A program made the position numbers and the translations under genes. A stretch of DNA of 35,633 nucleotides from Planctomycetes bacterium GWF2_42_9 (lineage in GTDB: Bacteria; Planctomycetota; Phycisphaerae; Sedimentisphaerales; UBA12454): contig MHYA01000040.1 of the NCBI GenBank assembly GCA_001825675.1, positions 7,147 through 42,779 on the forward strand, in the 5' to 3' direction. Shown one piece after another: positions 2,704-26,626 of the stretch. Within the stretch, counting starts at the first letter, position 1. Each line of letters opens with the position of its first letter. Under the pieces are notes generated by a model. The model was not told the origin of the DNA. It made no database searches and worked only from the letters and a program-made list of their open reading frames with translations.

Positions 2704-2731
2704 AATTAATACCAGTGGAGGACTATATAAA

Positions 2732-4099: not shown

Positions 4100-4171
4100 A
4101 TGGTGTGTTAAGCCTTGGAAGAAGAAGGCTTGTTAAAAATATTTTAAGTTCTTTTTATAAGGAGTGCGAAA

Positions 4172-4849: not shown

Positions 4850-4922
4850 GAGCGGAATACGAGAAATGTCATGATGATGAGTTGACAAGTTAGAAGTAAC
4901 TAAAATGATAAAGAATAGAGAG

Positions 4923-4952: not shown

Positions 4953-4979
4953 TCTATCTGGAAAGCAGATAATATAAAG

Positions 4980-8834: not shown

Positions 8835-8858
8835 CAGTTTGTAATTAGGAGAATAAAA

Positions 8859-9833: not shown

Positions 9834-9984
9834 ACTAAGAAAATTCGCATGGACGGAAAAACAAAATAGTTAATCTTCAAATCATAGCAGTTTTATAATC
9901 TCTAAAACAATGTTAATAACGATAAATTTTATCAGAAGTTCAAATGGTTATAATCTGGGTGATAATTTTTTTTAGAAAGTAGCT

Positions 9985-11775
9985 ATGAATCTACACATGT
10001 TTGATTTATCTGTAATATTAACCTTTTTTGTTATTTCATTATTAGTTGGTATTGTTGTTGCTAAACGTGCGGGCACGAGTTCCTCAGAGTTTTTTCTTTC
10101 TGGCCGAACAATGCCATGGTGGCTCCTAGGTTTTTCCATGGTAGCCACAACCTTTTCTGCGGATACACCTAATCTGGTCACTGACATTGTGCGGCAACAT
10201 GGAATGGCCGGCAATTGGGTGTGGTATCCATTTCTTCTGACGGGAATGATTACAGTTTTTGTGTATGCAAAACTCTGGAGGCGTTCCGGTGTAATGACGG
10301 ATGTGGAATTTTATGAAATTCGATATAGTGGTAAAGAGGCTGCATTTCTTCGTGCTTTCAGGGCATTGTATCTCGGTGTGTTTTTTAATATAATGATAAT
10401 GGCCAGTGTTACTCTGGCTGCAATAAAAATAGGCGGAGTTATGTTTAATTTCAACCCGCTCAAAAGCGTGCTAGTCGCAGCAACTGTAACGGTCATATTC
10501 AGCACTATGGGAGGGCTTCGCAGTGTATTATTTACAGATTTTTTATTGTTTATAGTCGCAATGATAGGCTCTGTAACGGCAGCTTTTTTTGCGGTTAAGC
10601 ATCCATCTGTAGGGGGGCTACAGAATCTTATTACCAACGCTGCAGTCAAAGAAAAATTGGTCTTTCTACCTGATTTTAACGATACAGATGCTGTCATATC
10701 TCTGCTTATTGTTCCGCTTGCGGTTCAATGGTGGAGCGTGTGGTATCCTGGAGCAGAACCAGGTGGGGGGGGGTATATTGCCCAACGTATACTTGCCGCC
10801 AAGAATGAAAAACATGCCACAGGTGCAACTCTTTTCTTCAATATCGCTCATTACGCATTTCGGCCGTGGCCGTGGTTTATTGTTGCTCTTTCCTCACTGG
10901 TGGTTTTTCCGAATCTTCAATCTTTGAAATCTGCTTTCCCGCATCTTGACCCCTCTATGATTAAAAATGACCTCGCTTACCCGGCTATGTTGACGTTTCT
11001 GCCTCATGGCATACTCGGTTTGGTAGTGGCATCTCTTATCGCTGCATATATGTCAACTATGTCAACACATTTGAACTGGGGTTCTTCTTATGTGGTTAAT
11101 GATTTTTACAGACGTTTCGTCAATCCTTCGGCACCGGAAAGGCAGCTAGTGCGCATCGGGCGCATTTCGACGGTTGTGATGATGATCGCCGCAAGCTCAA
11201 TAGCATTATGGCTTGGAAATGCGCTGAGAGCATTTAATATTTTATTACAAATAGGTGCCGGTACCGGATTGTTGTTTTTACTTCGCTGGTTCTGGTGGCG
11301 AATCAATGCATTTAGTGAAATTGCAGCCATGATAGTATCATTTAGTATAACTATTTATTTTGAGTTTATTCATCAGGCCTTAGGTTTTGAACGATTCGAG
11401 CACTGGAAGCAGTTAGTGATCGGAGTGGCGATTACAACCGTATCTTGGGTGATTGTAACTCTATTTACCCGTCCGACAGATGAGCGGACACTGACAGATT
11501 TTGTTAAACTGATAAATCCTGGTGGGCCCGGCTGGAAGAAAGTCGAAGACAGAGCAAAAAAGAATGGAATATCTATCGAAAGTCAGGCCTCTCGCCCTAA
11601 TTTGCCAATGGGCATACTTTGTATGTTTCTGGGTTGCGTTTTGGTTTACAGTGCTATTTTTGCGACGGGATTTTGGATTTATGATAAGATGTTTATGGCA
11701 GCGATTTTGACGGGCTTGGCGTTATTAGTGGCTGTAACATTGATTAAACTCTGGGGTTCTAAGAATCTATTATAG
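9985..11775 (+). CDS. Sodium:solute symporter (SSS family)
   Basis: 596 residues, inner-membrane protein with about 13-14 hydrophobic segments. The N-terminal part, SEFFLSGRTMPWWLLGFSMV followed by ATTFSADTP, is the family signature around the first helices and the sodium site. DVEFYEIRYSG follows, and a long middle part ends with the typical MSTMSTHLNWGSSYVVNDFY segment. The C-terminal cytoplasmic stretch (TRPTDERTLTDFVKLINPGG) is common in planctomycetal members. Function: sodium-driven uptake of a sugar or other small organic solute; the substrate cannot be read from sequence but is probably a product of the locus. A GAAAG-type weak ribosome site precedes ATG. It lies 151 bp after the DUF4434 gene and 24 bp before URO-D-like 1. 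Confidence 0.88.
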   Translation: MNLHMFDLSVILTFFVISLLVGIVVAKRAGTSSSEFFLSGRTMPWWLLGFSMVATTFSADTPNLVTDIVRQHGMAGNWVWYPFLLTGMITVFVYAKLWRRSGVMTDVEFYEIRYSGKEAAFLRAFRALYLGVFFNIMIMASVTLAAIKIGGVMFNFNPLKSVLVAATVTVIFSTMGGLRSVLFTDFLLFIVAMIGSVTAAFFAVKHPSVGGLQNLITNAAVKEKLVFLPDFNDTDAVISLLIVPLAVQWWSVWYPGAEPGGGGYIAQRILAAKNEKHATGATLFFNIAHYAFRPWPWFIVALSSLVVFPNLQSLKSAFPHLDPSMIKNDLAYPAMLTFLPHGILGLVVASLIAAYMSTMSTHLNWGSSYVVNDFYRRFVNPSAPERQLVRIGRISTVVMMIAASSIALWLGNALRAFNILLQIGAGTGLLFLLRWFWWRINAFSEIAAMIVSFSITIYFEFIHQALGFERFEHWKQLVIGVAITTVSWVIVTLFTRPTDERTLTDFVKLINPGGPGWKKVEDRAKKNGISIESQASRPNLPMGILCMFLGCVLVYSAIFATGFWIYDKMFMAAILTGLALLVAVTLIKLWGSKNLL

Positions 11776-11799: not shown

Positions 11800-12963
11800 A
11801 TGAATCGGAAGGAAAGACTAACGGCCACATTGCTCGGAAAACAGGTTGATCGCTCGGCCGTATCTTTTTATGAATTGAACGGCATTGATGAGGACCCTTA
11901 TGATGATTCGCCGTTTAATATTTATTCGCATCCGTCATGGAAGAGTCTGATAAACCTGACCCGTGAAAAAACAGATCGCATTGTTATGCGGAATGTGCCT
12001 TACTCAATGGGGCCACATATTAAGATACCTTATTGGAGCCATCTGAAGGATATTGGCAGAACGGATGTCAGTTTCGATAATAATGGAAGTCGTTTTATGA
12101 CTTTGACATTGCAGACGGGTTGCAGAACTCTGACCAGTCGCACGCGGCAGGACCGAGACGTTAATACTGTCTGGACATTGGAATATTTATTGAAAGATGT
12201 GAATGATATCAGGGCATGGCTGGAAATGCCTGTTTTTGAGTACAGTGATGGCATTGATTTGTCATATATTACAGAAACTGAGCGATTGTTGGCGGACAGT
12301 GGTATCGTTATGATAGATACGCCCGATCCAGTTTGCTGTGCAGTGGAACTGCTAGGATTTGAAACAATGATGCTGATGGCGACGCTGGAGTCGAAGCTGT
12401 TTCACCAGCTGTTGCAGAGATTTGCTTCAGTGTTACACCACCAGACAGATTACATATCACAGGCTCTCCCTGGGCGACTTTGGCGCATTTATGGCCCTGA
12501 GGCAATGACAGCCCCATATTTCAGGCCAAAGCATTTTAGGGAGTACATTGTAAAATATGATGCCCCGATGATTCACGCGATTGAGCGAAACGGCGGCTAT
12601 GCAAGGATACATTGTCATGGAAAGGTAAAAGATATACTAGACGATATAGTTTCTATGGGCTGTAGCGGGATTGACCCGTTAGAGCCTCCTCCGCAGGGAG
12701 ATGTAGATCTTTGGTATGTCCGCCAAAAGTATGGTGAGCAGCTTGTTCTTTTTGGCAACCTTGAAATTGCCGATATTGAAAATATGCCTACCTTAGAATT
12801 TGAAAAAAGGATTATCAATGCGATAAAGCAAGGAACCTGCGGCAAAGGCAGAGGATTTGTTTTAATGCCTTCAGCTTGTCCTTATGGTCGTGTAGTATCC
12901 GATTTGACATTGAGAAATTATGAAACTATTATAGAAATAGCAGAGAGCTATTCAGGCAATTAA
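11800..12963 (+). CDS. URO-D family protein 1 (MtaA/CmuA-like superfamily)
   Basis: 387 residues. The start NRKERLTATLLGKQVDR, the middle GPEAMTAPYFRPKHFREYI and the region FGNLEIADIENMPTLEFEKR place it in the uroporphyrinogen decarboxylase superfamily. That superfamily also holds corrinoid-dependent methyltransferases such as MtaA, MtbA and CmuA. At the site where MtaA-type enzymes have the zinc ligands His-X-Cys-Gly, this protein reads IHCHG (His271, Cys272, His273), and a late ACPYG (Cys360) could be the third ligand. It lacks the arginine-rich N-terminus of true HemE and sits in a sugar locus, so haem synthesis is unlikely. AAAGGATGATGCGGT precedes ATG. Cytoplasmic. Methyl transfer is inference; the substrate is unknown. 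Confidence 0.75.
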   Translation: MNRKERLTATLLGKQVDRSAVSFYELNGIDEDPYDDSPFNIYSHPSWKSLINLTREKTDRIVMRNVPYSMGPHIKIPYWSHLKDIGRTDVSFDNNGSRFMTLTLQTGCRTLTSRTRQDRDVNTVWTLEYLLKDVNDIRAWLEMPVFEYSDGIDLSYITETERLLADSGIVMIDTPDPVCCAVELLGFETMMLMATLESKLFHQLLQRFASVLHHQTDYISQALPGRLWRIYGPEAMTAPYFRPKHFREYIVKYDAPMIHAIERNGGYARIHCHGKVKDILDDIVSMGCSGIDPLEPPPQGDVDLWYVRQKYGEQLVLFGNLEIADIENMPTLEFEKRIINAIKQGTCGKGRGFVLMPSACPYGRVVSDLTLRNYETIIEIAESYSGN

Positions 12964-13087
12964 TATATGACTAATCAAACAAAAATCAGTAATGTCGAAA
13001 TTTCGCCAAAAAGTCTAATTGCTTAGAGTAAATCAATAAACTAAACAGGAAGTGTCAAATAATTTATTTTTATATAGGAAATTAAGA

Positions 13088-15148
13088 ATGTTTGAAGCTA
13101 GGTCAACAAATGTAAGATCATTGGTGGTATTTTCAATTATTGCGATGTTTTTATCAAATTTATCCTTGCAGGCATTTTCTTCTCCTGTGACAAAAATATT
13201 AAGTCAGAAAAATCTTTGGATTATCCCTGAACCAAAAAAAATTGTTGATGCAGCCGGTTCGTTTAAGCTCAGTTCGTGCAACGAGATTAATTTGATAGGA
13301 GCCGATCTACCTTCGTTATTTAAAGTTAATTTATTAGAGAGATTGGATTTAAAAGCATCAATAACGTTAACCAACAGCAAAGCTCCAAAGCCTCAGGCGA
13401 TTAACCTGATTTTTTCTCCGAATGGCAAGCTTGATACACAAGTGGAGTATATTGATAATGATGAATTCGAAACATTGTCGGTTCAGGGCTATATACTCCA
13501 CATTGATAGTAATAGCATAACCATTGCGGCAAAGGATGTTAGCGGGCTTTTTTATGGAATAGGAACGTTGATTCAAATAGCGGCGGATAATATTTCACTA
13601 CCGGGATTGCATATTTTAGATTGGCCCAGCTTAAGATTTCGCGGTGTGCAGCAGGACGTTAGCAGGGGGCAGGTTCCAACGGTGCAAACATTAAAGCGGT
13701 TAATAGATGTGTTAGCTGCTGCAAAGATGAATGTTCTTGAATTATATATTGAACATACTTTTAAATTCAAGTCGCACCCTGCCATCTCGCCGCCGGAAGG
13801 ACTTTCAGTACAAGATGCAAATGCAATTTTTAACTATGGTGCCGAAAATCATATAGATGTACATCCTTTTCTTCAGGTGCTTGGGCATTCGGGTCATGTT
13901 CTAAACTTGCCACAATATCAGCATTTACGTGTCAGCCCATGTAAGGAAAAACCTTGGATTATGACATGGGATGTCCGTAAACCCGAATCGGTGTCTATGG
14001 TGCACGAATTGATGGGTGATATCTGCAATGCGTTTCCTGGGCAATACTTGAACGTTGATATTACTGAGATCGATATTGATGGTTTTCTGAATACAGGTTC
14101 TACTCAGGAAGAAGTAACTGATTTGATATTTAATTATATTTTGGATCTAAATAATGTTGTGAAGCAACATGGTATGCATCTTATGATTGCCCAAGGACCT
14201 CTTGACAGCATAGGTCATCTTGCTGGCATGGGGCCTAAGCTGGATAAATTGCCTAAAGATATTCTGATTGGTATGTATTATACTGCCGGGGGTGATTATA
14301 AGCCGGCATGGAAAACGGATTTTCCTCGTTTACAAACAAATGGATTCAACTTCTTTGCACAGCCATGGATTGATTCTCATATAAGAATATTGCCGTGGGT
14401 AAGCCATGCCATGGATTTTTCGGATGAAGAGGTAAGCCGGGGGCTGGCTCACGGTGCAATTGGTAGTATTACGTGTGATTGGGGCGATGCGGGACATTTT
14501 CATTTGGTAGGTCAGGAGTGGTATCCGATTGTATATCATGGTGCCAGTGCCTGGACGGGTGCAAATCTTGATAGGAACTATTTTGATCAAGCTTTTACTT
14601 TTCGGTTTTACGGAATATCCGATAGCAGTGTTGCTAAAGCTATACAGTTAGCCGGAAATATTAATGGCCAAAAACTCAAAGTTAAAGACGATTCTGGTAC
14701 GATTACAGAAAAATCATCATACTATTTTTGGGAATTTTTTAACAATCCGTTCACGGATAATAATATGATTTTTTTAGTAGATCCCGTTGAGGAAGGAAAT
14801 AGAATATGTAAAGCTGCTGATGAATCAATAAGTATGCTTCAAAAAGCCTATGCAAACGCCAGTCGCAACAAAGACAATATAGAACAATTGTTATTTGGGG
14901 CAAGATGTTATCAGGCAATGGGGTTGAAGATGATTATGGTCGGCCATGAGCGTGATTCCGCATATTCACGCGAGCAGTTGTGTGTCGAATTGAAAAAAAT
15001 CATTAAGGTTTATGAGAAATTAAAAGCGGATTATAAAAACCTATGGTTAGCTGAAGACCGAGAAAATGATCACATGCACATGTTAATTAGCCGGTTTGAT
15101 AATACTATAAAACCATGTAGAGAAAAATTATCAGAAATTAACAAATAG
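13088..15148 (+). CDS. Exported GH20-like enzyme (beta-hexosaminidase relative)
   Basis: 686 residues from ATG 13088, chosen because AGGAAATTAAGA gives a well-spaced ribosome site; an in-frame GTG at 13052 would add 12 residues. Signal peptide about 1-31 (VRSLVVFSIIAMFLSNLSLQ then AFS). A GH20 N-terminal domain (NLWIIPEPKKIVDAAGSF, about 42-175) is followed by the barrel (RFRGVQQDVSRGQVP, about 185 onward; MNVLELYIEHTFKF where canonical enzymes have the HWHLTDDQ strand). The usual Asp-Glu catalytic pair reads NVDITEID (Thr326-Glu327). It is a close paralogue of the core of the 4980 gene, with stretches nearly identical in DNA. Probably periplasmic or extracellular, acting on a beta-linked sugar; N-acetyl specificity is doubtful. 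Confidence 0.8.
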   Translation: MFEARSTNVRSLVVFSIIAMFLSNLSLQAFSSPVTKILSQKNLWIIPEPKKIVDAAGSFKLSSCNEINLIGADLPSLFKVNLLERLDLKASITLTNSKAPKPQAINLIFSPNGKLDTQVEYIDNDEFETLSVQGYILHIDSNSITIAAKDVSGLFYGIGTLIQIAADNISLPGLHILDWPSLRFRGVQQDVSRGQVPTVQTLKRLIDVLAAAKMNVLELYIEHTFKFKSHPAISPPEGLSVQDANAIFNYGAENHIDVHPFLQVLGHSGHVLNLPQYQHLRVSPCKEKPWIMTWDVRKPESVSMVHELMGDICNAFPGQYLNVDITEIDIDGFLNTGSTQEEVTDLIFNYILDLNNVVKQHGMHLMIAQGPLDSIGHLAGMGPKLDKLPKDILIGMYYTAGGDYKPAWKTDFPRLQTNGFNFFAQPWIDSHIRILPWVSHAMDFSDEEVSRGLAHGAIGSITCDWGDAGHFHLVGQEWYPIVYHGASAWTGANLDRNYFDQAFTFRFYGISDSSVAKAIQLAGNINGQKLKVKDDSGTITEKSSYYFWEFFNNPFTDNNMIFLVDPVEEGNRICKAADESISMLQKAYANASRNKDNIEQLLFGARCYQAMGLKMIMVGHERDSAYSREQLCVELKKIIKVYEKLKADYKNLWLAEDRENDHMHMLISRFDNTIKPCREKLSEINK

Positions 15149-15161
15149 GGAAAAAGACAAA

Positions 15162-16154
15162 ATGGACCATGTTGAACGATTCAGAAATATCATGTCTTTT
15201 AAACAGGCAGATCGGCTCCCAATTGTTGAGTGGGCTATATGGTGGGACAAGACCATCGACAGGTGGCATAAAGAAGGATTGCCTTTAGAGTTGCAAGAAA
15301 ATGTGGATATTCGGGCGTATTTCAGCCTTGATTCTTATAATCAGTTATGGGTATCTTCTTTTACGAAGGACTGTCCATGTCTATCAGAATCAGGTGCAGG
15401 ATACATAAGCACTGCCGGGGAGTACCATAATTTTAAGAAATTTTTATATCCCAATAATCCATTTGAGAAGAATGTACTTTCTATTTGGAACACAATGCAC
15501 CAAAGTGGTGAAATGGTGATCTGGTTTACCTTAGAAGGTTTTTTCTGGCATCCTCGATCTTTATTTGGAATTGAAAAACATATATTTTCGTTTTACGATC
15601 AGCCAGAACTTATGCATGAGATTAATAAGAACCTATTGGATTATCATATCAGGATTGTTGAACAAATATGTGAGATTTGTGAACCAGATTTTATGACGAT
15701 TGCTGAAGATATGTCATATAATAATGGTCCAATGATATCTCGGAAATGTTTCGATGAATTTCTTGCGCCATATTATTTGAAATTGACTAAAATATTAAAA
15801 AAACATAATATTATTATTTTAGTTGATTCTGATGGTGATGTTACTCAAATGATTCCCTGGCTTGAGAACGTTGGTGTCCAAGGGATACTTCCATTGGAAA
15901 GAGCGGCAGGTTGCGATATTTTTGAAATTCGCCAAAAACATCCTAAATTTTGTATGATAGGCGGATTCGATAAAACAGTGATGTCGAAAGGCGAAATCGC
16001 AATGCGAAAAGAATTTGAAAGATTACTGCCGGCCATGAAAGGGGGAGGTTATATTCCTTCAGTTGACCATCAGACGCCGCCAGATGTTTCTTTAAATAAT
16101 TACTGTATTTATGTTTCATTGCTGCGGGAATATGTAAAAATAGCTTGCGAGTAA
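15162..16154 (+). CDS. URO-D family protein 2 (DSDG type)
   Basis: 330 residues. The start MDHVERFRNIMSFKQADRLP, the middle MTIAEDMSYNNGPMISRKCF and the end IPSVDHQTPPDVSLNNYCIY are typical of a URO-D subfamily common in Planctomycetota and Lentisphaerota and of unknown function. Where zinc-dependent methyltransferases have His-X-Cys-Gly it carries VDSDG (Asp222, Ser223, Asp224), so a thiolate zinc site of the MtaA type is absent. It lies 14 bp after the GH20-like gene and 5 bp before the next URO-D gene, hence co-translated. AGGGAAAAAGACAAA precedes ATG. No signal peptide; cytoplasmic. It may form a heteromer or a reaction series with its neighbour, but that is inference. Confidence 0.78.
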   Translation: MDHVERFRNIMSFKQADRLPIVEWAIWWDKTIDRWHKEGLPLELQENVDIRAYFSLDSYNQLWVSSFTKDCPCLSESGAGYISTAGEYHNFKKFLYPNNPFEKNVLSIWNTMHQSGEMVIWFTLEGFFWHPRSLFGIEKHIFSFYDQPELMHEINKNLLDYHIRIVEQICEICEPDFMTIAEDMSYNNGPMISRKCFDEFLAPYYLKLTKILKKHNIIILVDSDGDVTQMIPWLENVGVQGILPLERAAGCDIFEIRQKHPKFCMIGGFDKTVMSKGEIAMRKEFERLLPAMKGGGYIPSVDHQTPPDVSLNNYCIYVSLLREYVKIACE

Positions 16155-16159
16155 TAATT

Positions 16160-17239
16160 ATGACTTCTAAGGAAAGAGTCTTGTTAAGCATTAATCATTC
16201 ACAACCTGACCGAGTGCCTTTGGGATGGGCTGGAATTAATTCAAATATTAAAAAAAAAATCAATAAATATTTAGGTTTAAATGGCAATGATGAGGATTAT
16301 TTGCTTGAAGCACTTGATGTAGATTTGCGTGTTTTAGATTTGCCTTATGTTGGCCCAAAGATACATAAAGATATATCCGGACTAATAGTTGGTACCTTAT
16401 GGGGATGGAGATGTAAATTTATAAAAAATGAATTTGGCAGCTACTTGGATTATTGTGATTTTCCACTGAAAAATGCTGACTTTGATGAGATAGAAGCGTG
16501 GCCGATGCCTCATCCTGATGATTTTGCTTATGATTGCTTGTTAGAACAATGCAAAAGATATAAGGACTATTGTATTGTATTTGGTAATCCTGGTTTGGCA
16601 GATATAATTAATAGCAGCGGTTTTCTATGTACCATGGAAAAAGTATTAATGGACCTGGCAGTAGGAGATAAAACTATTTTAAGATTAATAGATCGAAGGA
16701 ATGAAATTAATCTGCAAATATTAGAAAACGTGCTAAAAATTTCGGGCAAAGATATTGATATAATCTGGATTGGTGAAGATTTAGGAACTCAAAATTCGGC
16801 TCTCATTAGCATATCATTTTTTAGAGAATTTATAAGACCCAGGCATCAAAAATTTATTGATCTCGCAAAGAAATATCGCAAGAAAGTGATGATACATAGT
16901 TGCGGTTCAAGCAGTTGGGCTTTTGAAGATTTTATAGACATGGGGATCGATATAATCGACACAATCCAGCCAGAGGCTAAAAGTATGTCGCCTGCCTATT
17001 TGAAGAATTTTTTTGGAGATAAGCTGAGTTTTCATGGGGCTATTTCAACGGCTGGGCCTTTATCTGATGGAACAGTTGATGATATTATCAAATGTGTTAA
17101 CCAAACTCTTGACATAATGATGCCGAAGGGTGGGTATATAATGGCCCCGACACATATGATTCAAGATAATACTCCCCCTGAAAATATTTTAGCTATGTAT
17201 AACGCGGCTAAGAAATTTGGCTCTTATATAAGGAAATAA
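16160..17239 (+). CDS. URO-D family protein 3 (HxCG type, methyltransferase-like)
   Basis: 359 residues from ATG 16160; a TTG at 16145 would overlap the preceding gene and is disfavoured. MTSKERVLLSINHSQPDRVP is the classic opening of MtaA/CmuA-like URO-D proteins. VMIHSCGSS (His246, Cys248) fits the His-X-Cys zinc motif of corrinoid-dependent methyltransferases. The third ligand, usually Cys near the end, appears to be His (PTHMIQDNTPPEN, His332), the residues around it being otherwise canonical. Of the three URO-D genes in the locus it is the one most likely to handle methyl-corrinoid chemistry. No corrinoid-binding partner or reductive activator is visible in this window. Confidence 0.78.
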   Translation: MTSKERVLLSINHSQPDRVPLGWAGINSNIKKKINKYLGLNGNDEDYLLEALDVDLRVLDLPYVGPKIHKDISGLIVGTLWGWRCKFIKNEFGSYLDYCDFPLKNADFDEIEAWPMPHPDDFAYDCLLEQCKRYKDYCIVFGNPGLADIINSSGFLCTMEKVLMDLAVGDKTILRLIDRRNEINLQILENVLKISGKDIDIIWIGEDLGTQNSALISISFFREFIRPRHQKFIDLAKKYRKKVMIHSCGSSSWAFEDFIDMGIDIIDTIQPEAKSMSPAYLKNFFGDKLSFHGAISTAGPLSDGTVDDIIKCVNQTLDIMMPKGGYIMAPTHMIQDNTPPENILAMYNAAKKFGSYIRK

Positions 17240-17263: not shown

Positions 17264-18679
17264 GTGGAAGACAGTTCTCAGTGTAATACGATGAAAAACG
17301 ATTCCACCGCTAACACTAAACTTCGTGTCGGACAGAAAATTGCCTGGGGAACCGGAGCGATGGCAGATACTTTGATGGCTAACATCATAGGCGGGCTGGC
17401 ACTGCCTATTTACAATATTGCGTTAGGAGTAAATCCGGTATTGATCGGCTATGCCTTGGGAATCCCTAGATTATGGGATGCGATCACAGACCCATTTATG
17501 GGCAACATATCCGATAACACTCATTGCAAGTTGGGCAGACGCAGACCTTACATTGCACTGGGAGCGATACTTAGTGGAATATTATTTGCTATTTTATGGA
17601 TGCCACCAACCAAATTTAGCCAAACTGGGTTGTTTATATTTTTTCTTATTGTATCCATTCTTTACTTTACTGCTTACACAATCTATACAATTCCTCAGAA
17701 TGCCCTCGGATTCGAGTTGAGTGCCGATTATAACGAGCGGACGAGGGTCATGGCTTATAGGTCATTTTTTGCAGGTGTAGGCGGGTTGCTTTTTCCGTGG
17801 GCATATAAGTTGTGTTTTCTTAAACAATTCGGCAGTAACGAAGTTGAAGGTGTGCGAATTGTTGGTATTATTTTTGGGATTCTAATAATAATAACAGGAA
17901 TGGTGCCTGCTATTTTTTGCCGCGAGAACATACAAGTTCAGACTCAGGTAAAAATATCTCTGATGGAAGCATTTAAATACACGGTTAAAAACGGCACATT
18001 TTTGATTTTGGCGCTAGTGATATTTTTTATATTGTTGGGACTTTTTCTTGTTGCTCCCTTGGGTTCGTATATTAACATTTTTTATGTTTATGGCGGCGAT
18101 AAAAGCTCTGCGGCAACTATCGGCGGAGTTGGCGGAACAATGTATGCAGGAATGTCAATCCTGATGATTCCGCTGGTAACATATCTCGGTACTCATTGGG
18201 GCAAGAAAAGTACGCTGCTTGCGGGACAGTCAATAGTTATTATTTCTTCTCTTTCGAGCTGGTTTCTCTATACCCCCAAGCATCCTTATCTGCAGCTTAT
18301 AACGCTTGCAATGGTGGCACCGGGACTTTGCTGTATTTTTATTCTTACATCTTCCATGTTGGCCGATGTTTGTGATATTGATGAAGTAAATACTGGTCGC
18401 AGACGTGAAGGAATGTATGGAGCTGTTTTTTCATGGGTATTCAAGGGAGGCATTGCTGCTGTTATGGCACTTAGCGGCTATCTTGTTGGATGGTCGGGTT
18501 TTGATGTTAAATTAGAAGCAATGCAGAGACCTCAAACGATACTGAATATGCGTTTTATGTTCGCAGTCGTACCGGCTGCTTGCGTGGGTATTTCATTTTT
18601 GTTAACAATTTCTCTCCCACTTACAAAGAAGCAGGCAATGAAAGTCAGAGCTATTCTTGATGAGCGTAAAAAGATTTGA
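17264..18679 (+). CDS. GPH-family (MFS) glycoside:cation symporter
   Basis: 471 residues from GTG 17264, with AAAAGGAGATTTT directly upstream; an in-frame ATG ten codons later has no such site. About twelve membrane segments. LRVGQKIAWGTGAMADTLM, IGYALGIPRLWDAITDPFMG, NISDNTHCKLGRRRPYI and MLADVCDIDEVNTGRRREGM are diagnostic of the glycoside-pentoside-hexuronide:cation symporters (MelB, XylP, UidB type), including the Asp residues of the cation site. Function: cation-coupled import of a mono- or oligosaccharide across the inner membrane. It is the second transporter of the run, and sits 24 bp after URO-D 3 and 51 bp before the sulfatase. Confidence 0.88.
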   Translation: MEDSSQCNTMKNDSTANTKLRVGQKIAWGTGAMADTLMANIIGGLALPIYNIALGVNPVLIGYALGIPRLWDAITDPFMGNISDNTHCKLGRRRPYIALGAILSGILFAILWMPPTKFSQTGLFIFFLIVSILYFTAYTIYTIPQNALGFELSADYNERTRVMAYRSFFAGVGGLLFPWAYKLCFLKQFGSNEVEGVRIVGIIFGILIIITGMVPAIFCRENIQVQTQVKISLMEAFKYTVKNGTFLILALVIFFILLGLFLVAPLGSYINIFYVYGGDKSSAATIGGVGGTMYAGMSILMIPLVTYLGTHWGKKSTLLAGQSIVIISSLSSWFLYTPKHPYLQLITLAMVAPGLCCIFILTSSMLADVCDIDEVNTGRRREGMYGAVFSWVFKGGIAAVMALSGYLVGWSGFDVKLEAMQRPQTILNMRFMFAVVPAACVGISFLLTISLPLTKKQAMKVRAILDERKKI

Positions 18680-18730: not shown

Positions 18731-20188
18731 TTGAATCGTAGACAGTTTCTCGAAAAAGCAGGTGTGACAATCGCAGGGACGATGTGTACTGGCATGGTGG
18801 CGAGACGTGATAAGAAAGTATATAATGGAGATTCGTCTAAACCAAAGTACCCAAATTTAGTTTTCGTATTTGCTGATCAATGGCGAGCACAAGCTACAGG
18901 ATATGCTGGAGATTCAAATGCAATCACACCTAATCTCGAAAAACTTGCCAAAGAAAGTATAACTTTTACAAATGCAGTTTCGTGTTGTCCGGTATGTAGC
19001 CCCTATAGGGCCAGTCTCATGACCGGCCAATATCCACTAACTCATGGAGTTTTTCTCAATGATGTTCAACTTAATAGCCCTGCCATCACTATTGCCCAGG
19101 CTTACAATGCATCTGGTTATGACACAGCTTATATAGGCAAATGGCATCTAGATGGACATGGAAGAAATTCCTATGTACCTCTTGAAAGAAGGTTGAGTTT
19201 TAAATTCTGGAGAGGATTTGAATGTTGCCATAACTATAATGATTCTTTCTATTATGCAGACGAGCCTGTAAAGCTTAGATGGAACGGCTACGATGCGGTA
19301 TCACAAACGCAAATGGCACAGCAGTATATAAAGGAGCATGTTGTCAAGGAAAACCCGTTTGCGCTGTTTTTGTCACTAGGGCCTCCTCATGACCCATATA
19401 ATAGCGCACCTGAAAAATATAAAAGACTTTTTTCTGATTCTGAAAAATTACGATTGCGCCCAAATATCCCTTCTGAATTTTACGAAAAATCAAGGCATGA
19501 TCTTTGTGGCTATTACTCGCATATTGCAGCCCTTGATGATTGTGTAGGAAGTTTGCTGGATACGCTTCGTGACTGTGGTATAGAAAAAAATACTATTTTC
19601 GTATTCACATCTGATCACGGAGATATGCTTTACTCTCAAGGGGTACAAAAGAAGCAACAACCATGGAATGAAGCTGTCTGTGTTCCATTTTTGCTGAGAT
19701 ATCCTGCCGTTATGGGATTAAGGAAAAAAAAGATTTCAACACCGTTTAATAGCCCGGATATAATGCCGACATTATTAGGATTATGCGGGGTAGGTATTCC
19801 CAAAACAGTCGAAGGCAATGATTTTTCATCTATTATTACCGGAGAGCGGAATCCGCCTGAAGGCATTGCGGCGCTTATAGCCTGTTATTCACCATTTGGT
19901 GAATGGCCTCGCGATCAGGGCGGTAAAGAATATCGTGGTATTCGTACAGAAAAATATACTTATGTCAAGGATATGCAAAGCCCCTGGCTGCTTTATGACA
20001 ATGAGACCGATCCTTATCAGCAGAGCAATTTATGTAATAAATTGCAGTATAAGGAACTTCAAAAGAAACTTGAAAATATTCTCATACAGAAACTTCAAGA
20101 AACTAATGACGGTTTTCTGTCTGGCTATGACTATATAGAAAAGTGGGGTTATACTGTTGATGAAGCTGGCAATGTCCCTTATCTTTAG
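18731..20188 (+). CDS. Exported sulfatase (S1 family) with Cys-type maturation motif
   Basis: 485 residues from TTG 18731; the NRRQFLEKAG opening is a twin-arginine-like signal and fixes the start even though no good ribosome site precedes it. PNLVFVFADQWR supplies the first metal-binding Asp. CSPYRASLMTG (Cys89-Arg93) is the sulfatase signature whose Cys is turned into formylglycine by anaerobic sulfatase maturase or FGE, encoded elsewhere. GKWHLDGHG and FTSDHGDML provide further active-site and metal ligands. The C-terminal part (EYRGIRTEKYTYV…LYDNETDPYQQSNL) is complete, and the length is normal for the family. Role: removal of sulfate esters from a polysaccharide or oligosaccharide outside the cytoplasm. 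It points to a sulfated glycan as the substrate of the locus. Confidence 0.9.
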   Translation: MNRRQFLEKAGVTIAGTMCTGMVARRDKKVYNGDSSKPKYPNLVFVFADQWRAQATGYAGDSNAITPNLEKLAKESITFTNAVSCCPVCSPYRASLMTGQYPLTHGVFLNDVQLNSPAITIAQAYNASGYDTAYIGKWHLDGHGRNSYVPLERRLSFKFWRGFECCHNYNDSFYYADEPVKLRWNGYDAVSQTQMAQQYIKEHVVKENPFALFLSLGPPHDPYNSAPEKYKRLFSDSEKLRLRPNIPSEFYEKSRHDLCGYYSHIAALDDCVGSLLDTLRDCGIEKNTIFVFTSDHGDMLYSQGVQKKQQPWNEAVCVPFLLRYPAVMGLRKKKISTPFNSPDIMPTLLGLCGVGIPKTVEGNDFSSIITGERNPPEGIAALIACYSPFGEWPRDQGGKEYRGIRTEKYTYVKDMQSPWLLYDNETDPYQQSNLCNKLQYKELQKKLENILIQKLQETNDGFLSGYDYIEKWGYTVDEAGNVPYL

Positions 20189-20208: not shown

Positions 20209-23046
20209 ATGTTACTTAAAGCAAAATGGATATGGAAGCAACAAGATGATTTATGTTATAATCAGACTATTGTTGCTAGAAAAAAGATAGAAGCAAAGGT
20301 GGTGAAAAAAGCATTTGTTAAGATAACTGCTGACAGTTATTATCGCTTATATATAAATGACCATTGGATTAATGATGGACCTCCTCGGAGTTGGCCTGAA
20401 CATTTTCAATATGACACTATTGAAGTTACTGAATTTCTTAAAGCAGGTATCAATGAAATTAAAATCATTTCTCGTTATTATGGCGTTGGTGATTTTCATC
20501 GAGTATGCAAACAGGCAGGAATTCTCTTTCAAATGGATACAGCAGATGTTGATGGTAACAGGACCACAGTTATTTCCGATGAAACGTGGGATATTGCTGA
20601 TGCTGGAGCATGGGTTTCTAATACGCCTAAAATTTCAATTCAGATGGAGCCATTTGAGTATTATGATGCTCGCTTGGAAGATAGTTTAAAATTTACTAAA
20701 GCCACTGTTTTATATGATGCTTATGGTGGGCCATGGAAAGATTTAAAGCCACGAGATGTTGCACTATTGAGCAAAAAGCCGGTTGCCTTTCAGTCTTTTA
20801 TAGGCGCAAACATTGTCAGAAGTGATAGCATTAGTTACTGTCTGCCCGCGACGAGATTGGTGTTTCCCGGCCTTATAGAGGCGAACCTGAAAGTCTGCCC
20901 CGCATGCGGAATGGCGACTATTTTGAAAGTAGATAAGGAAAGTTGCTTTAATTTATACACTGAGGGATTGGTATTTGCGATTGATGGTCAATATAATCCA
21001 AAGGGTGATTACAAACTTAATGCCGGCGATCATTTGATATTGGCATTTGCAGAAGCGAACTACAGTCATATTAAAGAAAAGATTTTTCGGTTTGTGGATC
21101 CACCGAAATTTGAACTACAAAATCCTGTTGATAGAAATGAAGAAAATCCATGGTGTTTTATCCGCTTCAATAATTATGCGTTTTCAGCAGATGATATTAT
21201 ATGGGTTGATTTTTTAAAGGATGATAAAGAAATATTCCAGGGATTTAAAAAATACAAAAATCTAATTGAAAGTTTATTGAACGATGTTAACGATGAAAAA
21301 ACATTTAATAAGTACCTCAAAGGTTATGCAGTAAGCCTTACCACTGAAAATATGTTTGCCCACGATACTTCATGGCGTTTTAAGGAACGCAGAGTTGTTT
21401 CAGATGTTGATGATAATGTGATGAATCCTGATGCACTACTTAATGACGGAACAGATTGTACTATTATAAATCCAAGTGCCGCAGGAGATATTGAACTTAT
21501 GTATGATTTGGGTGAACAGAACTGTGGCTATTATAGTTTTGATTTGACTGCTGATGAAGGCGTTCAAATGAGCATAGATGGAATTGAATATATCAATCCG
21601 GATGGAAGGTTGCAGCACACAAGCGATAACAGTAACGGGTTGTGCTATATAACCAGAAATGGCGACAACAGTTATATTTCTTTGAAGCGTCGGTCAGGAC
21701 GATATATATTTATTACGTTGAGAAAGCAGAAAAGCCCTGTTCATATAAGAAATATAAAATTGATAGCATCAACATACCCTATAGAAAGTAGAGGAAACTT
21801 TTTTTGTAGCGACCCGATGCTGAACAAGATTTGGGAGATATCTGCTCGTACTCTGAAACTTGGTATGGAAGACACATTTACTGATTGCTCACTGTATGAA
21901 CAGACACTTTGGGTTGGTGATGCCAGAAATGAATCTTTATTTGCGTATGGGATTTTTGGGGCAACTGATATAACCAAAAGAAGTATACTTTTGGCTGCAC
22001 AGTCATTGGATAGTTATCCAATGGTTGGTTGTCAAGTTCCTTCAAGTTGGAAGTGTATCATACCGGTTTGGAGTTTTTTGTGGGGAATTTCTGTCTGGGA
22101 CTATTATTGGTACACAGGAGATAAAAAGTTTTTGAAAGAAATTTGGCCCTTCGTTATCAGAAATTTAAAAGGTGCAGAGGAGTATATCAATCAAGATGGA
22201 TTATTTAGTGCTCCCTTCTGGAATTTATTTGATTGGGCTCCCATAGATCAGAGACAAAAGACAGTTCTGCATAATAGTATGTTTTTTGTTGGTGCAATAA
22301 ATGCGGCCATACGCTGTAGCGAAATTGTGAGCAATTATGACGATAAGATCTGGTTGAAAAATATGAAAAACACATTGTGTCGTGGGATTAACAAATTGTG
22401 GGATTCAAATAGAAAGACGTACCCCGACAGCATGCACGATGATGGAATTTCAAGCGATTCTGTCAGCCAGCACACCAGCTTTCTATCAGTTCTCTATGAT
22501 ATTATCGAGGGTTCTAACAGAGGTGACGCTGTATCGAATATGATATCACCTCCGGCGGGGATGGTTCGTGTCGGTTCTCCGTTTGCCATAATGTATCTTT
22601 ATGAGGCGATGGAGAAAGTGGGCTTAGAGCAAAAAATAATTGAATCTATTCGTGAAAATTATTTGCCGATGATAGAGGCGGGTGCGACAACCGTATGGGA
22701 GACATTTGCCGGTATGCGTCCGATGTCGGATGGGCCGAGTCGCAGCCACTGTCACGGCTGGTCAGCATCACCCCTTTACTTTTTTAGCCGAGTTATATTA
22801 GGGGTTAGATATGCCGCTGCAGGTGGAAAGGCGATTAAACTTAAGCCTAGTGTCATAGAGGGTTTGACATGGGCAAAAGGAACGGTTTTAACGCCCAATG
22901 GCCCAGTAGAAGTTGATTGGCAGCTTGAAAAAAATATTTTCAAATTTAATTGTGCATTGCCAAAAGGGACGAATGTGGAATTCGTTGAAAGTGAAAGTCT
23001 TAATCGAGTAAAAGTTGTGAAGAATATAAAAGGAATTAAATTATGA
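20209..23046 (+). CDS. GH78-like alpha-L-rhamnosidase family protein
   Basis: 945 residues. The N-terminal part (AKWIWKQQDD; ITADSYYRLYINDHWINDGP) is the beta-sandwich found before GH78 barrels. The (alpha/alpha)6 domain begins near SDPMLNKIWEISARTLKLGM (about 535) and carries DCSLYEQTLWVGDAR (about 560-574), a variant of the GH78 DCPxRExxxWxGD motif: the acid Glu and Asp are kept while Pro and Arg are changed. TVWETFAGM (Glu about 830) and SRSHCHGWSASPLYFFSRVI then LGV complete the active-site cleft, and a C-terminal beta domain follows. No signal peptide is evident, so it probably acts on imported oligosaccharides. Its stop overlaps the start of the next gene (ATGA), so the two are translationally coupled. 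Rhamnose is the likely but unproven sugar. Confidence 0.8.
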   Translation: MLLKAKWIWKQQDDLCYNQTIVARKKIEAKVVKKAFVKITADSYYRLYINDHWINDGPPRSWPEHFQYDTIEVTEFLKAGINEIKIISRYYGVGDFHRVCKQAGILFQMDTADVDGNRTTVISDETWDIADAGAWVSNTPKISIQMEPFEYYDARLEDSLKFTKATVLYDAYGGPWKDLKPRDVALLSKKPVAFQSFIGANIVRSDSISYCLPATRLVFPGLIEANLKVCPACGMATILKVDKESCFNLYTEGLVFAIDGQYNPKGDYKLNAGDHLILAFAEANYSHIKEKIFRFVDPPKFELQNPVDRNEENPWCFIRFNNYAFSADDIIWVDFLKDDKEIFQGFKKYKNLIESLLNDVNDEKTFNKYLKGYAVSLTTENMFAHDTSWRFKERRVVSDVDDNVMNPDALLNDGTDCTIINPSAAGDIELMYDLGEQNCGYYSFDLTADEGVQMSIDGIEYINPDGRLQHTSDNSNGLCYITRNGDNSYISLKRRSGRYIFITLRKQKSPVHIRNIKLIASTYPIESRGNFFCSDPMLNKIWEISARTLKLGMEDTFTDCSLYEQTLWVGDARNESLFAYGIFGATDITKRSILLAAQSLDSYPMVGCQVPSSWKCIIPVWSFLWGISVWDYYWYTGDKKFLKEIWPFVIRNLKGAEEYINQDGLFSAPFWNLFDWAPIDQRQKTVLHNSMFFVGAINAAIRCSEIVSNYDDKIWLKNMKNTLCRGINKLWDSNRKTYPDSMHDDGISSDSVSQHTSFLSVLYDIIEGSNRGDAVSNMISPPAGMVRVGSPFAIMYLYEAMEKVGLEQKIIESIRENYLPMIEAGATTVWETFAGMRPMSDGPSRSHCHGWSASPLYFFSRVILGVRYAAAGGKAIKLKPSVIEGLTWAKGTVLTPNGPVEVDWQLEKNIFKFNCALPKGTNVEFVESESLNRVKVVKNIKGIKL

Positions 23047-24284
23047 AGAATAAGATTAAAGTTCTGTTTGTTGTTATATCATATTTTCAATCTTTATTAT
23101 TAGCCGTCGATATTGTAAAATCAAATGGCAGCGAAATTGCTGTGCGGCAGATAATTGAATCAACCAGGAGCATAACGTATTATAACGGTGAGATAAGTTG
23201 GGCGAATTTTGATTACAGCCGGTTTGAGTCAACTATTAAAGAGATGCAGGATATGGGTGCGAATACGATTTGGTTTGTGTTACCATGGATAGACTTTCAG
23301 GCACAAGCCTTGCCAGAGCCGCAGTGGAATGAAAAGGCAGTAGAAAACCTTAATAACGCTATTACAATAGTGCAAACGCAGGGTATGAGAGTAATGTTGC
23401 CTTTGTGTTATTTGGGAAAGGGTTGGAGTCCGAAGGGGATAGACCCTAATGTATGGACTGCCGATAAAGACATGTATCAGGCCTTCGGCTTGTATGCTAA
23501 GACGCTTATTACCAGATTGTTGCAAAATGGCAATGATAATATGAGTTTTTTGTTATATGGAGAGGGATGTTATCCAAGTTTTCATCGTACCAGAGAATAC
23601 CAGATTACAGTAAAATCCTTTAGGAAATGGTGCCGTGACAACAATGATGATATTAACTTCTGGAATAGTCGTTGGGGCACATGCTACAAATGGGACAATT
23701 TATTGCCTTTCACTGGAAAAACAGCGAGCGATAAAGAAAACACCCAAAATTTGCTTGCTGACTATTGGAGATGGTCATCGAGTATAATTTGTGAAAGGCA
23801 TGGCAGCCTTGCTCATGAAATAAGAGGTATAATCGGAAATAAGGCATTAATCGGTTATCATGATGATGCGATCATAGCCAAAGACTGGGGGGGCGGAGTT
23901 ACTCCTATACCCAAGGATAATCCTTATCAGTTTTTGAGTTTTGCGCATTATTATACCTTGCATGAGTATGGCTCATTAGACAAGTTTGTATTGCAGACAA
24001 ATGATGTAATTACTAAATTCAAAAAGTTATATCCTGAAATGCCGCTGGGAATTTTTGAGACCGGATTGTGTGAACAAGATTTTGACCGAAACAATCAGGC
24101 CAACGTTATTAGCGAAATTGCCCATATTGCTGAAAGAAAAGATGTTGGTATCAATATCTGGATGTGGCAGGACCACATAACTGGTGATAAGTGTCAGCAG
24201 ACTTTTGGGCTTATTACACAAAATGGGAAAAAAAAACCTGCATATCTGATGCTTCATAAAATCTGGCAGAAGGGTAATAATTAA
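23043..24284 (+). CDS. Exported clan GH-A glycosidase-like TIM barrel protein
   Basis: 413 residues. A signal peptide (NKIKVLFVVISYFQSLLLAV) is followed by a TIM barrel. STIKEMQDMGANTIWFVLPW is strand-helix one of GH5/GH42-like enzymes. FLLYGEGCYP provides a candidate acid/base Glu174 at the end of strand four, and LGIFETGLCEQDF a candidate nucleophile Glu339 at strand seven, as in retaining clan-A glycosidases. INIWMWQDH forms strand eight. The family cannot be named with certainty; GH5- or GH42-like is the closest in style. It starts by a 4-bp ATGA overlap with the GH78-like gene, which ties its expression to that enzyme. Export here and apparent cytoplasmic location of the neighbour suggest successive steps on the same glycan. 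Confidence 0.7.
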   Translation: MKNKIKVLFVVISYFQSLLLAVDIVKSNGSEIAVRQIIESTRSITYYNGEISWANFDYSRFESTIKEMQDMGANTIWFVLPWIDFQAQALPEPQWNEKAVENLNNAITIVQTQGMRVMLPLCYLGKGWSPKGIDPNVWTADKDMYQAFGLYAKTLITRLLQNGNDNMSFLLYGEGCYPSFHRTREYQITVKSFRKWCRDNNDDINFWNSRWGTCYKWDNLLPFTGKTASDKENTQNLLADYWRWSSSIICERHGSLAHEIRGIIGNKALIGYHDDAIIAKDWGGGVTPIPKDNPYQFLSFAHYYTLHEYGSLDKFVLQTNDVITKFKKLYPEMPLGIFETGLCEQDFDRNNQANVISEIAHIAERKDVGINIWMWQDHITGDKCQQTFGLITQNGKKKPAYLMLHKIWQKGNN

Positions 24285-24544
24285 GGACGAACCATTATTG
24301 AAGACTGAAAAACGGCGATTATAGATGCTGCTTTATTGTAGCTTATGTGATACTTCCCTAATTTTAGGTGTTTTTGCCAGAAGCTGCCATGGCGATTTAC
24401 TCCTATTGATTGGCTCGAAAAAAAATTGCATTTAGCAGAACAATTTAGTGAAGCATTACTATTGGGGATATTAGGAGAAATTAATAAAAGCAGAAAAAGA
24501 TTCTTCTTCTTTAGTTATCTAACTATTGATTGGAAAGGGAACAT
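24285..24544. other. 260-bp gap inside the operon, no gene
   Basis: No open gene and no clear promoter. One frame (about 24347-24480) reads LPWRFTPIDWLEKKLHLAEQ without a usable start, which faintly recalls coding sequence, perhaps a decayed fragment. The end of the gap holds GGAAAGGGAAC, the ribosome site of the AGE gene. It is the largest gap within the run and could hold a secondary promoter. Confidence 0.35.
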
Positions 24545-25732
24545 ATGCAAGCAGGCGATATTAAAAAATATATTCAAATATATAGTAAAGGTTTATTGGA
24601 GGATACATTATCTTTTTGGCTAAAGCATAGTATTGATGAAAAATACGGCGGATTTATATTTTCCTTAGACAGGGATGGTAGTATTCTTGATACCGATAAG
24701 CCTATGTGGATTCAGTCTCGCTTTGTATGGCTGCTTTCAACTTTATATAATACAGTAGAAAAAAAACAGCAGTGGCTTGATTTGGCGAAACATGGAATTG
24801 ATTTTATTGAAAAATATGGTTTTGACAAAGACGGTCGAATGTTCTTCAGGGTTACTCAAGACGGCAAAGGTCTTATCAAGCGACGTTATTTATATTCAGA
24901 GTTTTTTGCTGTTCTCGGTTTTGCAGCTTATGCGCAAGCAGCAGGGGAAGAAAGTTATAAGGAAAAAGCGGTAGAGCTTTTCGAGATGATTCAAAAATAT
25001 CTTAATACGCTGGGGCTTTTGTTACCTAAAGGTATACCGGGTGTGCGGGATATGAAAAATCTTGCCATTCCAATGATGATTATTTGTGTTTGTCAGCAGT
25101 TAAAGAATGTTGTTGAAAAGAATTATTGCGATAAACATATTGACAATGCCATAGCAGAAATTGAAAGCCACATAAACGACCAATATAGATGTGTACTCGA
25201 AAACGTCGGCCCAAACGGAGAATTTATAGATCACTTTGATGGTAGAATAGTTACGCCCGGACATGGCATTGAGGCTGCATGGTTTATTCTTCATGAAGCG
25301 CTCTGCAGAGACAGAAATTTGCATTTGATTAACCTTGGATGTAAGATGGTTGATTATTGCTGGCAAATAGGATGGGATAAAAAATATGGTGGAATACTTT
25401 ATTTCAAAGATGCCAGAGGTTTGCCTGTAAGTGAATATTGGCACGATATGAAATTCTGGTGGCCGCAGAATGAGACCATTATCGCAACTTTGCTGGCATA
25501 TTATCTTACTGGTGATGAAAAGTATGCCAACTGGCACAAAGTTGCACATGACTGGGCATACAGGCATTTTCCTGATAAAGAATTTGGCGAATGGTTTGGC
25601 TATTTGCATCGTGATGGAAGACTGTCTAACACGATTAAGGGCAATATGTGGAAAGGACCATTCCACTTGCCTAGAATGCAGTGGTATTGTTGGAAACTTT
25701 TGCAAAAAATGGAGATAAAAAAAAATGTGTAA
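24545..25732 (+). CDS. AGE-family sugar 2-epimerase/isomerase
   Basis: 395 residues from ATG 24545 (GGAAAGGGAAC upstream; a TTG at 24530 is less likely). The whole length matches the N-acylglucosamine 2-epimerase family, an (alpha/alpha)6 barrel: WLKHSIDEKYGGFIFSLDRD, KPMWIQSRFVWLLSTLYN, TPGHGIEAAWFILHEA (His240 and Glu of the conserved PGHxxExxW site), and WWPQNETIIATLLAYYLTG. Members interconvert GlcNAc/ManNAc, epimerise cellobiose-type ends or isomerise mannose; the present sequence does not discriminate. No signal peptide, thus cytoplasmic. Its last 8 bp overlap the PIG-L gene, which suggests that epimerisation and de-N-acetylation act on the same amino sugar or its derivative. Confidence 0.85.
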   Translation: MQAGDIKKYIQIYSKGLLEDTLSFWLKHSIDEKYGGFIFSLDRDGSILDTDKPMWIQSRFVWLLSTLYNTVEKKQQWLDLAKHGIDFIEKYGFDKDGRMFFRVTQDGKGLIKRRYLYSEFFAVLGFAAYAQAAGEESYKEKAVELFEMIQKYLNTLGLLLPKGIPGVRDMKNLAIPMMIICVCQQLKNVVEKNYCDKHIDNAIAEIESHINDQYRCVLENVGPNGEFIDHFDGRIVTPGHGIEAAWFILHEALCRDRNLHLINLGCKMVDYCWQIGWDKKYGGILYFKDARGLPVSEYWHDMKFWWPQNETIIATLLAYYLTGDEKYANWHKVAHDWAYRHFPDKEFGEWFGYLHRDGRLSNTIKGNMWKGPFHLPRMQWYCWKLLQKMEIKKNV

Positions 25733-26573
25733 TGAGATATCTGAACCCTTGAATGTGGTAATTGTTTGCGCTCATCCGGACGATTGTGAATATGCTGCAG
25801 GAGGGACAACATTGCGGTATCGTGAATTGGGGCATAATGTGGTTTACATATCTATGACTAATGGCGACGCCGGACATCAGTCCATGAATCGTGAAGATAT
25901 CAAAAAACGCCGATACGAAGAAACGCGAAATGTAGCTGAGTATCTGGGCATTGAATACCAAATTATGGATATTCACGACGGTGAGGTTTTACCGACACTT
26001 GAAAACCGCCAGATTCTTATTCGTGTATTGAGAAAGTATCGACCTGATATTATTATAACCCATCCCGCAGATGATTATCACCCTGATCACCGCTATACCA
26101 GCCGGTTGGTTATGGATACAGCCTACATGCTTAAAGTGCCATTAATTGTTCCTGATGCTCCTGTATGTGAAAAGAATGTTGTATATTGTCACATAAGTTA
26201 CAAACCGGAAAGCGGTATACCTTCCGTTATTGTTCCGATGGATAAATATATGAATGGCAAAGCGTATGCCTTTCATCTAAATACTTCGCAGGTCTATGAA
26301 TGGCTTCCGTGGGTGGAAAATATTAAATTTAATATTTTGCCTTATGATGAACAAGGCAGGCTGGAATTTTTAAAACAACAGTGGATGGGCAAATGGTCCA
26401 TGGCCGCAGAAAATTATCGAGAAATTATGAAAAAATGCTCAAATGCAAAAATGTCCGGTTCTACTAATTGCATAGAGGCTTATACAATTTCGCCATTAGG
26501 ATTGGACATTACGAATGAAACATTTTCAAAATATTTTCCGTTTGATGATGTGATTTTTAAGGATTCTGTGTGA
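25725..26573 (+). CDS. PIG-L/LmbE family zinc de-N-acetylase
   Basis: 282 residues. VIVCAHPDDCEYAAGG (His17, Asp19, Asp20) and HPADDYHPDHRYTSRL (third zinc His at about 122) are the two metal- and catalysis-defining motifs of the family. Members remove N-acetyl groups from GlcNAc-containing metabolites (GlcNAc-PI, GlcNAc-inositol, bacillithiol precursors, chitobiose). The start overlaps the AGE gene by 8 bp, a sign of translational coupling. No export signal is seen. In this context it probably deacetylates an imported N-acetylated sugar or an intermediate, but the substrate is not readable from sequence. The two GH20-like proteins in the same run have lost the Asp that normally handles the N-acetyl group, which makes the true substrate a real question. 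Confidence 0.88.
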   Translation: MCNEISEPLNVVIVCAHPDDCEYAAGGTTLRYRELGHNVVYISMTNGDAGHQSMNREDIKKRRYEETRNVAEYLGIEYQIMDIHDGEVLPTLENRQILIRVLRKYRPDIIITHPADDYHPDHRYTSRLVMDTAYMLKVPLIVPDAPVCEKNVVYCHISYKPESGIPSVIVPMDKYMNGKAYAFHLNTSQVYEWLPWVENIKFNILPYDEQGRLEFLKQQWMGKWSMAAENYREIMKKCSNAKMSGSTNCIEAYTISPLGLDITNETFSKYFPFDDVIFKDSV

Positions 26574-26626
26574 AAAATTGGTGCTTTATGATATTATGGC
26601 AACTGTAGTTATTGAGCAGGTCTATT

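Follow-up and report, generated by a model that had tools for sequence, protein, structure and literature searches.

Many algal and bacterial polysaccharides bear O-methylated sugars as caps. In the literature searched, the route found for removing the methyl group is a P450 monooxygenase reaction: within the polysaccharide utilisation pathway for porphyran, a cytochrome P450 oxidatively demethylates 6-O-methyl-D-galactose, giving formaldehyde (PMC10033563). Being a monooxygenase, this enzyme cannot work without oxygen. Methyl transfer is also a known activity of the uroporphyrinogen decarboxylase (URO-D) superfamily, whose substrate-side methyltransferases pass a methyl group to a corrinoid protein that is reactivated by an activating enzyme; the O-demethylases and methyltransferases known there act on methoxy-aromatics and chloromethane, zinc being part of some of these enzymes and absent from others (PMC13222342). 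MtvB, OdmB, VdmB, MtoB and CdmB are such substrate-side enzymes. The same fold is found in MtaA and MtbA (Protein Data Bank (PDB) codes 4ay7/4ay8), methylcobamide:coenzyme M methyltransferases, and in HemE, the uroporphyrinogen decarboxylase, with its N-terminal RQAGR active-site signature. MtaA-like proteins outside methanogenesis also occur in the mlp gene clusters, for which identity above 25% to a characterised soluble coenzyme M methyltransferase is the defining threshold; the text searched mentions neither glycosidases nor planctomycetes (PMC10418091). Regarding corrinoid-dependent demethylation of sugars, or an expansion of URO-D proteins in glycan loci, no report was found in the open-access literature.

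The locus considered here, a set of genes for the degradation of a sulfated glycan, carries three URO-D proteins (the trio). They share their superfamily with MtvB, OdmB, VdmB, MtoB and CdmB, the first four being likened to them by description; unlike those enzymes, which act on methoxy-aromatics or chloromethane, the trio sits in a glycan locus, away from a corrinoid protein. Tentatively, at a probability of about 0.4, the three proteins are read as substrate-side methyltransferases (MT1) for O-methylated (6-deoxy)sugars, acting via a shared corrinoid protein. In contrast to the porphyran P450, such a route would be anaerobic and would give methyl-corrinoid.

The locus and its three URO-D proteins

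The window, i.e., the whole stretch of 35,633 nucleotides that was analysed, comes from the genome of Planctomycetes bacterium GWF2_42_9. Its relevant features, in window coordinates, are the following:

9985..11775, + strand: SSF-family sodium:solute symporter, probable sugar importer (Pfam SSF, E 4.5e-30)
11800..12963, + strand: URO-D superfamily protein 1, 387 aa, HxHG subfamily (Pfam URO-D)
12610-12621, + strand: HCHG of protein 1 (H271, H273), at the MtaA zinc-motif position (read on DNA)
13052..15148, + strand: GH20-like protein, GH20b domain and partial GH20 catalytic match (Pfam)
15162..16154, + strand: URO-D superfamily protein 2, 330 aa, DxDG subfamily (Pfam URO-D)
15825-15836, + strand: DSDG of protein 2 (D222, D224; read on DNA)
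16065-16070, + strand: DH, the late position of protein 2 (read on DNA)
16160..17239, + strand: URO-D superfamily protein 3, 359 aa, HxCGSSSW...PTH subfamily (Pfam URO-D)
16895-16906, + strand: HSCG of protein 3 (H251, C253), near-invariant in 80 relatives
17147-17155, + strand: PTH of protein 3, late ligand position H337 (Cys in MtaA, His in HemE)
17264..18679, + strand: GPH-family MFS sugar:cation symporter (MFS_2, E 3.7e-71)
18731..20188, + strand: sulfatase, SGSH_C type (domain match)
20209..23046, + strand: GH78 alpha-L-rhamnosidase (domain match)
23043..24284, + strand: GH5-like protein (weak match)
24530..25732, + strand: N-acylglucosamine 2-epimerase, AGE (domain match)
25725..26573, + strand: PIG-L family deacetylase (domain match)
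26612..27787, + strand: XylR-type (LacI/AraC-type) regulator, Peripla_BP_3 and AraC HTH (domain match)

The whole run lies on the + strand, with intergenic gaps mostly ranging from a few bp to about 90 bp; those flanking the URO-D genes are, in order, 24, 88, 13, 5 and 24 bp. Protein 3 starts at the ATG at 16160, the mechanical ORF reaching a TTG at 16145, and a promoter and terminator scan returned counts at chance level only. Domain matches bear out what an earlier note on this DNA had described, namely glycosidases, a sulfatase and sugar transporters in one same-strand run with the three URO-D genes, and neither a corrinoid protein nor the activator RACo was found in the window, as it had also remarked. 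Two GH20-like proteins are encoded (4905-8834 and 13052-15148); both have a full GH20b domain but match the GH20 catalytic profile over only about half of its length. The larger one additionally contains CBM96, CBM_4_9 and a dockerin-like stretch. On the minus strand, a 676-aa ORF (27995-30025) resembles ORFs that adjoin other URO-D paralogues (30% to C30:43431, near an SSF symporter set).

With 31.4, 47.5 and 58.3 bits, respectively, proteins 1, 2 and 3 pass the Pfam URO-D (PF01208) gathering cut-off of 23.9 bits and belong to the superfamily as proposed earlier, while the NCBIfam models for MtaA/MtbA-type methyltransferases (NF004889, NF040654 and TIGR01463) score them at 58 bits or less against cut-offs of 235-400. 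The motifs HCHG, DSDG and HSCG, previously noticed at the zinc-motif position, were re-read from the DNA and their codon positions confirmed; the replacement of the late Cys by His in protein 3 was likewise found, as APTH there against APGC in MtaA 4ay7. None of the three has the H-x-C...C zinc triad of the MtaA/MtbA/CmuA type, the residues being HxH, DxD and HxC...H in proteins 1, 2 and 3. Protein 3 aligns with MtaA 4ay7 over residues 194-358, with the H-x-C at the same place and His where MtaA has its late zinc Cys; as far as can be read from the sequence, it unites the pair known from MtaA with a late His as in HemE.

The AlphaFold models of protein 3 (pLDDT 94.8) and protein 1 (pLDDT 86) adopt the URO-D TIM-barrel fold, with HemE and MtaA as top PDB matches. 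Comparison of the predictions with these two enzymes, proposed in the earlier note for the pocket and made here for the overall fold, gave MtaA as the nearest solved fold to protein 3 (4ay8, E 8.8e-15, TM 0.66-0.70), followed by HemE, whereas protein 1 matched the HemE and MtaA folds about equally. In the protein 3 model, H251 stands at the end of one strand and H337 after the last strand, a predicted placement that fits, as expected, residues at the barrel mouth. Profile searches of the PDB with proteins 1 and 3 returned MtaA as the top match for both, and CdmB (9rui) was matched as well (E 5e-5 and 1.4e-13); with single sequences, protein 1 had no match and protein 2 had one at chance level only.

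The source genome (4.86 Mb in 214 contigs, 92% complete, 7% contamination) holds 42 PF01208 match stretches in 41 proteins, so that three in one locus are less exceptional than first thought. At the zinc-motif place, [HD]-x-[CDH]-G is kept in 39 of the 41 paralogues (23 HxC, 9 HxD, 5 DxD and 2 HxH); in 16 of them the late position is occupied by His, against only 6 with Cys, and the classical HICG...C form occurs three times. Since the pair is kept while its letters vary, the signatures of the trio are samples of a family-wide pattern. A profile built from the 41 paralogues recovers a few further, more remote members, among them C157:5982-7064 (L035), a 360-aa protein of a more distant URO-D branch, with no Pfam match and E 4e-15 to that profile, which adjoins a paralogue of protein 3.

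The RQAGR signature occurs in none of the 41 paralogues, and HemE identity was rejected for lack of it, in agreement with the earlier note, for which a complete HemE active site would have counted against a methyl-transfer role. It is therefore highly improbable that the three are divergent or decaying HemE copies: the modelled proteins 1 and 3 share the fold, and the active-site His of HemE has its aligned counterpart in the late His of protein 3, but RQAGR is missing in every paralogue, the trio having metal-type HxC, HxH or DxD residues instead, a different H-x-C pair is strongly conserved across phyla, and the three genes are open and full-length. On contig C161 of the same genome (L046, 255-5750), TP_methylase/HEM4, ALAD and radical SAM genes are consecutive, which suggests another, siroheme-type heme route in a genome without the HemE signature; HemE would then not be needed there.

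Three separate subfamilies and their neighbours

By BLAST, the nearest paralogues of proteins 1, 2 and 3 are C32_36078 (30%), C169_1167 (53%) and C157_7350 (53%), and in an IQ-TREE phylogeny of 73 proteins each of the trio falls into its own clade, with support of 100/99-100 and members from other phyla. Tandem duplication was rejected on these grounds; the separate clades and different nearest paralogues indicate specialised paralogues and no duplication in place. Orthologs of protein 2 (46-53%) are found in C169, L168, L174, L179 and G157. DxDG and HxCG...H genes lie close together in Chloroflexi (L168), Phycisphaerales (L174) and Lentisphaerae (L179), and three DxDG neighbours in 1.2 Mb have p ~0.01 if a density of two per 5 Mb, our own estimate, is assumed. 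Another member of the Lentisphaerae (L149) carries an ortholog of protein 1, an HxHG gene with 56% identity, about 4.5 kb from an HxCG...H gene. The suggestion that the trio forms one multi-subunit set was not sustained, as only pairs recur and the intact trio was not seen elsewhere.

When about 85,000 species genomes were scanned, using protein 3 and its paralogue as queries, 146 relatives came up, of which 80 were kept. They span Planctomycetota, Lentisphaerota, Verrucomicrobiota, Latescibacterota, Armatimonadota and Chloroflexota, with others in Clostridia, Poribacteria, Ignavibacteria, Spirochaetes and further groups. Across these 80, conservation is 94-95% for H251 and C253, for the GSSSW that follows, and for H337; at the level of the alignment, the late Cys-to-His change is a fixed hallmark of this subfamily. 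The near-invariance of H251, C253 and H337, together with the pattern kept in 39 of the 41 paralogues, argues for a metal-type site under selection.

Regarding the gene context, the 106 nearest neighbours of the other paralogues in the source genome include LacI/XylR-type regulators, Gfo/Idh, SDR, MFS_2, SSF, GH65, GH29, GH38, RhaT and GH78 families, whereas the commonest families among 69 control genes, taken around B12-binding genes and not at random, include one SSF and one MFS_1; URO-D neighbourhoods are thus richer in sugar genes than these control loci. The carbohydrate setting noted for the trio extends, for proteins 2 and 3, to their nearest paralogues, likewise in rhamnosidase/fucosidase loci: that of protein 3 lies with GH106 and GH65, and that of protein 2 with GH29, a GH78-like protein and an SSF symporter. 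GH106 also occurs near a subfamily-3 gene in L101. As rhamnosidases recur, 6-deoxysugars are the likely substrate class.

Of the three subfamilies, whose co-occurrence with carbohydrate loci the earlier note had also proposed to survey, subfamily 3 is often found outside sugar loci. Its nearest neighbours in other phyla are mixed (AraC regulators in 6 of 115, the rest mostly single housekeeping families) and differ little from distal control genes; no tight glycan linkage of subfamily 3 was found in those phyla, where the genes often stand alone. Those mostly non-carbohydrate neighbours speak against the MT1 reading, and would suit corrinoid-linked methyltransferases for S-, N-, aryl-O- or halo-methyl substrates, unrelated to the glycan and placed in the operon by coincidence, in line with the aryl ethers and chloromethane used by the known URO-D methyltransferases (PMC13222342). 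This is nevertheless improbable, given that the trio is closely packed on one strand with a sugar transporter gene on either side, and that rhamnosidase/fucosidase loci return around the closest paralogues of both protein 2 and protein 3, a sugar-gene context that favours the MT1 reading.

Candidate corrinoid partners and the proposed reaction

As substrate-side methyltransferases, the trio would be cytoplasmic TIM-barrel metalloenzymes from the MtaA-like side of the superfamily, representing three ancient subfamilies. The glycosidases and the sulfatase would release O-methylated, probably 6-deoxy, sugars, which the two symporters would import, and each enzyme would use its particular metal site (HxH, DxD or HxC...H) to bind one of these methylated sugars, a different one in each case. 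By analogy, the metal may polarise the ether oxygen of the O-methyl sugar, so that the methyl group is handed to Co(I) of a shared MtaC-like corrinoid protein encoded elsewhere in the genome (contig C81), which a RACo-type activator would keep in the Co(I) state. Demethylation of O-methylated sugars via a corrinoid was also among the suggestions of the earlier note, whose interpretation is partly supported. The MT1 reading is best for protein 3 (HxC...H), where it is fairly supported, and weaker for proteins 1 and 2; what we infer is that the three bind metal and transfer methyl groups, that sugars are their substrates, that they share one corrinoid partner and that the reading extends to proteins 1 and 2. 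The top profile match to MtaA, the modelled folds of proteins 1 and 3 and the existence of URO-D O-demethylases (PMC13222342) all favour it.

The genome search that the earlier note had called for did reveal an MtaC-like protein with the DLHDIG motif: one stand-alone corrinoid protein at C81:75365 (VQGDLHDIGKN), its gene interrupted by an assembly N gap and adjoining ETF and ETF-QO genes. A second B12-binding protein lies at C136. For the RamA-type activator it yielded only a RACo C-terminal fragment of 45 residues at the edge of contig C164. Three similar, scattered B12-binding radical SAM genes were also observed on contigs C26, C22 and C161 (L043, L044 and L046), two of the three starting with CLYPY..GDKGTGVDFFPPTGLEY.

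Among 40 related genomes, a corrinoid protein and RACo are nearly universal at any URO-D count (0 to 41), so that within the order this machinery does not track URO-D number. Relatives without any URO-D still keep both, making mere presence weak evidence; corrinoid protein and RACo must therefore serve something else too, perhaps methionine synthesis. At a wider scale, RACo is present in 48 of 50 subfamily-3 genomes, picked for spread of phyla, against 46 of 148 genomes in the phylum (Fisher p 4e-17, anaerobic lifestyle uncontrolled). Within those 148, where URO-D counting stopped at 13 per genome, RACo occurs in 17 of 21 genomes with at least three URO-D proteins and in 29 of 127 with fewer, lifestyle again uncontrolled. 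Both RACo comparisons count in favour of the MT1 reading, and the URO-D-free relatives against it.

Physical links come from two genomes. In L114 (Ignavibacteriae), an operon of URO-D, corrinoid protein, RACo and URO-D is convergent to a gene pair that includes a protein 3 ortholog. The first URO-D of this operon (EDLGSQ, HTDG, PCHNIQ) belongs to the clade sister to that of protein 3 (support 97/88), both having EDLG[ST]Q and PxHxIQ, and the last is of the late-Cys type. The six genes at 4509-11288 there comprise four URO-D proteins, the corrinoid protein and a full RACo. In L138, one of the two RACo-less subfamily-3 genomes, the protein 3 ortholog stands beside an mtaB-mtaC-cobW set and an AraC regulator, which point away from it in divergent orientation (1211-6816); mtaA is absent from this short contig. 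Both arrangements support the MT1 reading, but corrinoid genes lie near only 2 of the 80 subfamily-3 loci (p ~0.06, not significant alone).

The L138 gene, beside mtaB and mtaC where mtaA might be expected, together with MtaA as the closest fold, could instead point to protein 3 as the acceptor side (MT2), moving the methyl group from a methylated corrinoid protein to folate, thiol or homocysteine, as MtaA does. We consider this quite improbable, because nearly all subfamily-3 relatives have His for the late Cys of MtaA, the source genome already has three paralogues of the classical HICG...C form, and the L114 corrinoid operon has a separate late-Cys URO-D.

Two further genomes bear on whether a corrinoid is involved at all. 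G047, of the same phylum, has 38 URO-D matches, a true HemE by score among them, and neither RACo nor a stand-alone corrinoid protein, its only corrinoid protein being of MetH size; none of its copies examined, which cover part of the 38 loci, belongs to the protein 1 or protein 3 subfamily. This genome is a natural test case for a corrinoid-free URO-D function. G157, 98% complete and without RACo, carries a DxDG ortholog (49%). Therefore, the URO-D expansion generally, and the DxDG subfamily particularly, do not require RACo. These genomes weigh against the MT1 reading, as does the single MtaC-type protein for about 41 URO-D proteins, and they are in turn the strength of a corrinoid-free reaction on sugars or sugar acids (decarboxylation, lyase or isomerase), in which case the corrinoid machinery would be there for other purposes, as its retention in URO-D-free relatives would allow; the D/H-rich sites of proteins 1 and 2 may also suit oxygen ligands. 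Such a reaction is somewhat less likely than the MT1 reading, considering the RACo co-occurrence of subfamily 3, the sister-clade member within the L114 corrinoid/RACo operon and the closeness of protein 3 to the MtaA fold.

Possible meaning for anaerobic glycan degradation

Extending the MT1 reading, a widespread anaerobic O-demethylation of glycans is possible, if doubtful, in planctomycetes and other phyla, where diversified URO-D enzymes, each tuned by its ligands (HxC...H, HxH or DxD) to one O-methyl sugar, would share one corrinoid protein. If true, such a corrinoid-dependent route would explain how O-methylated glycans are digested anaerobically, and would tie polysaccharide breakdown to one-carbon metabolism. 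Whatever the outcome for demethylation, the approximately 41 copies in this one genome, with a strictly conserved, unusual metal motif, represent a large set of unassigned enzymes that family models label just as uroporphyrinogen decarboxylase.
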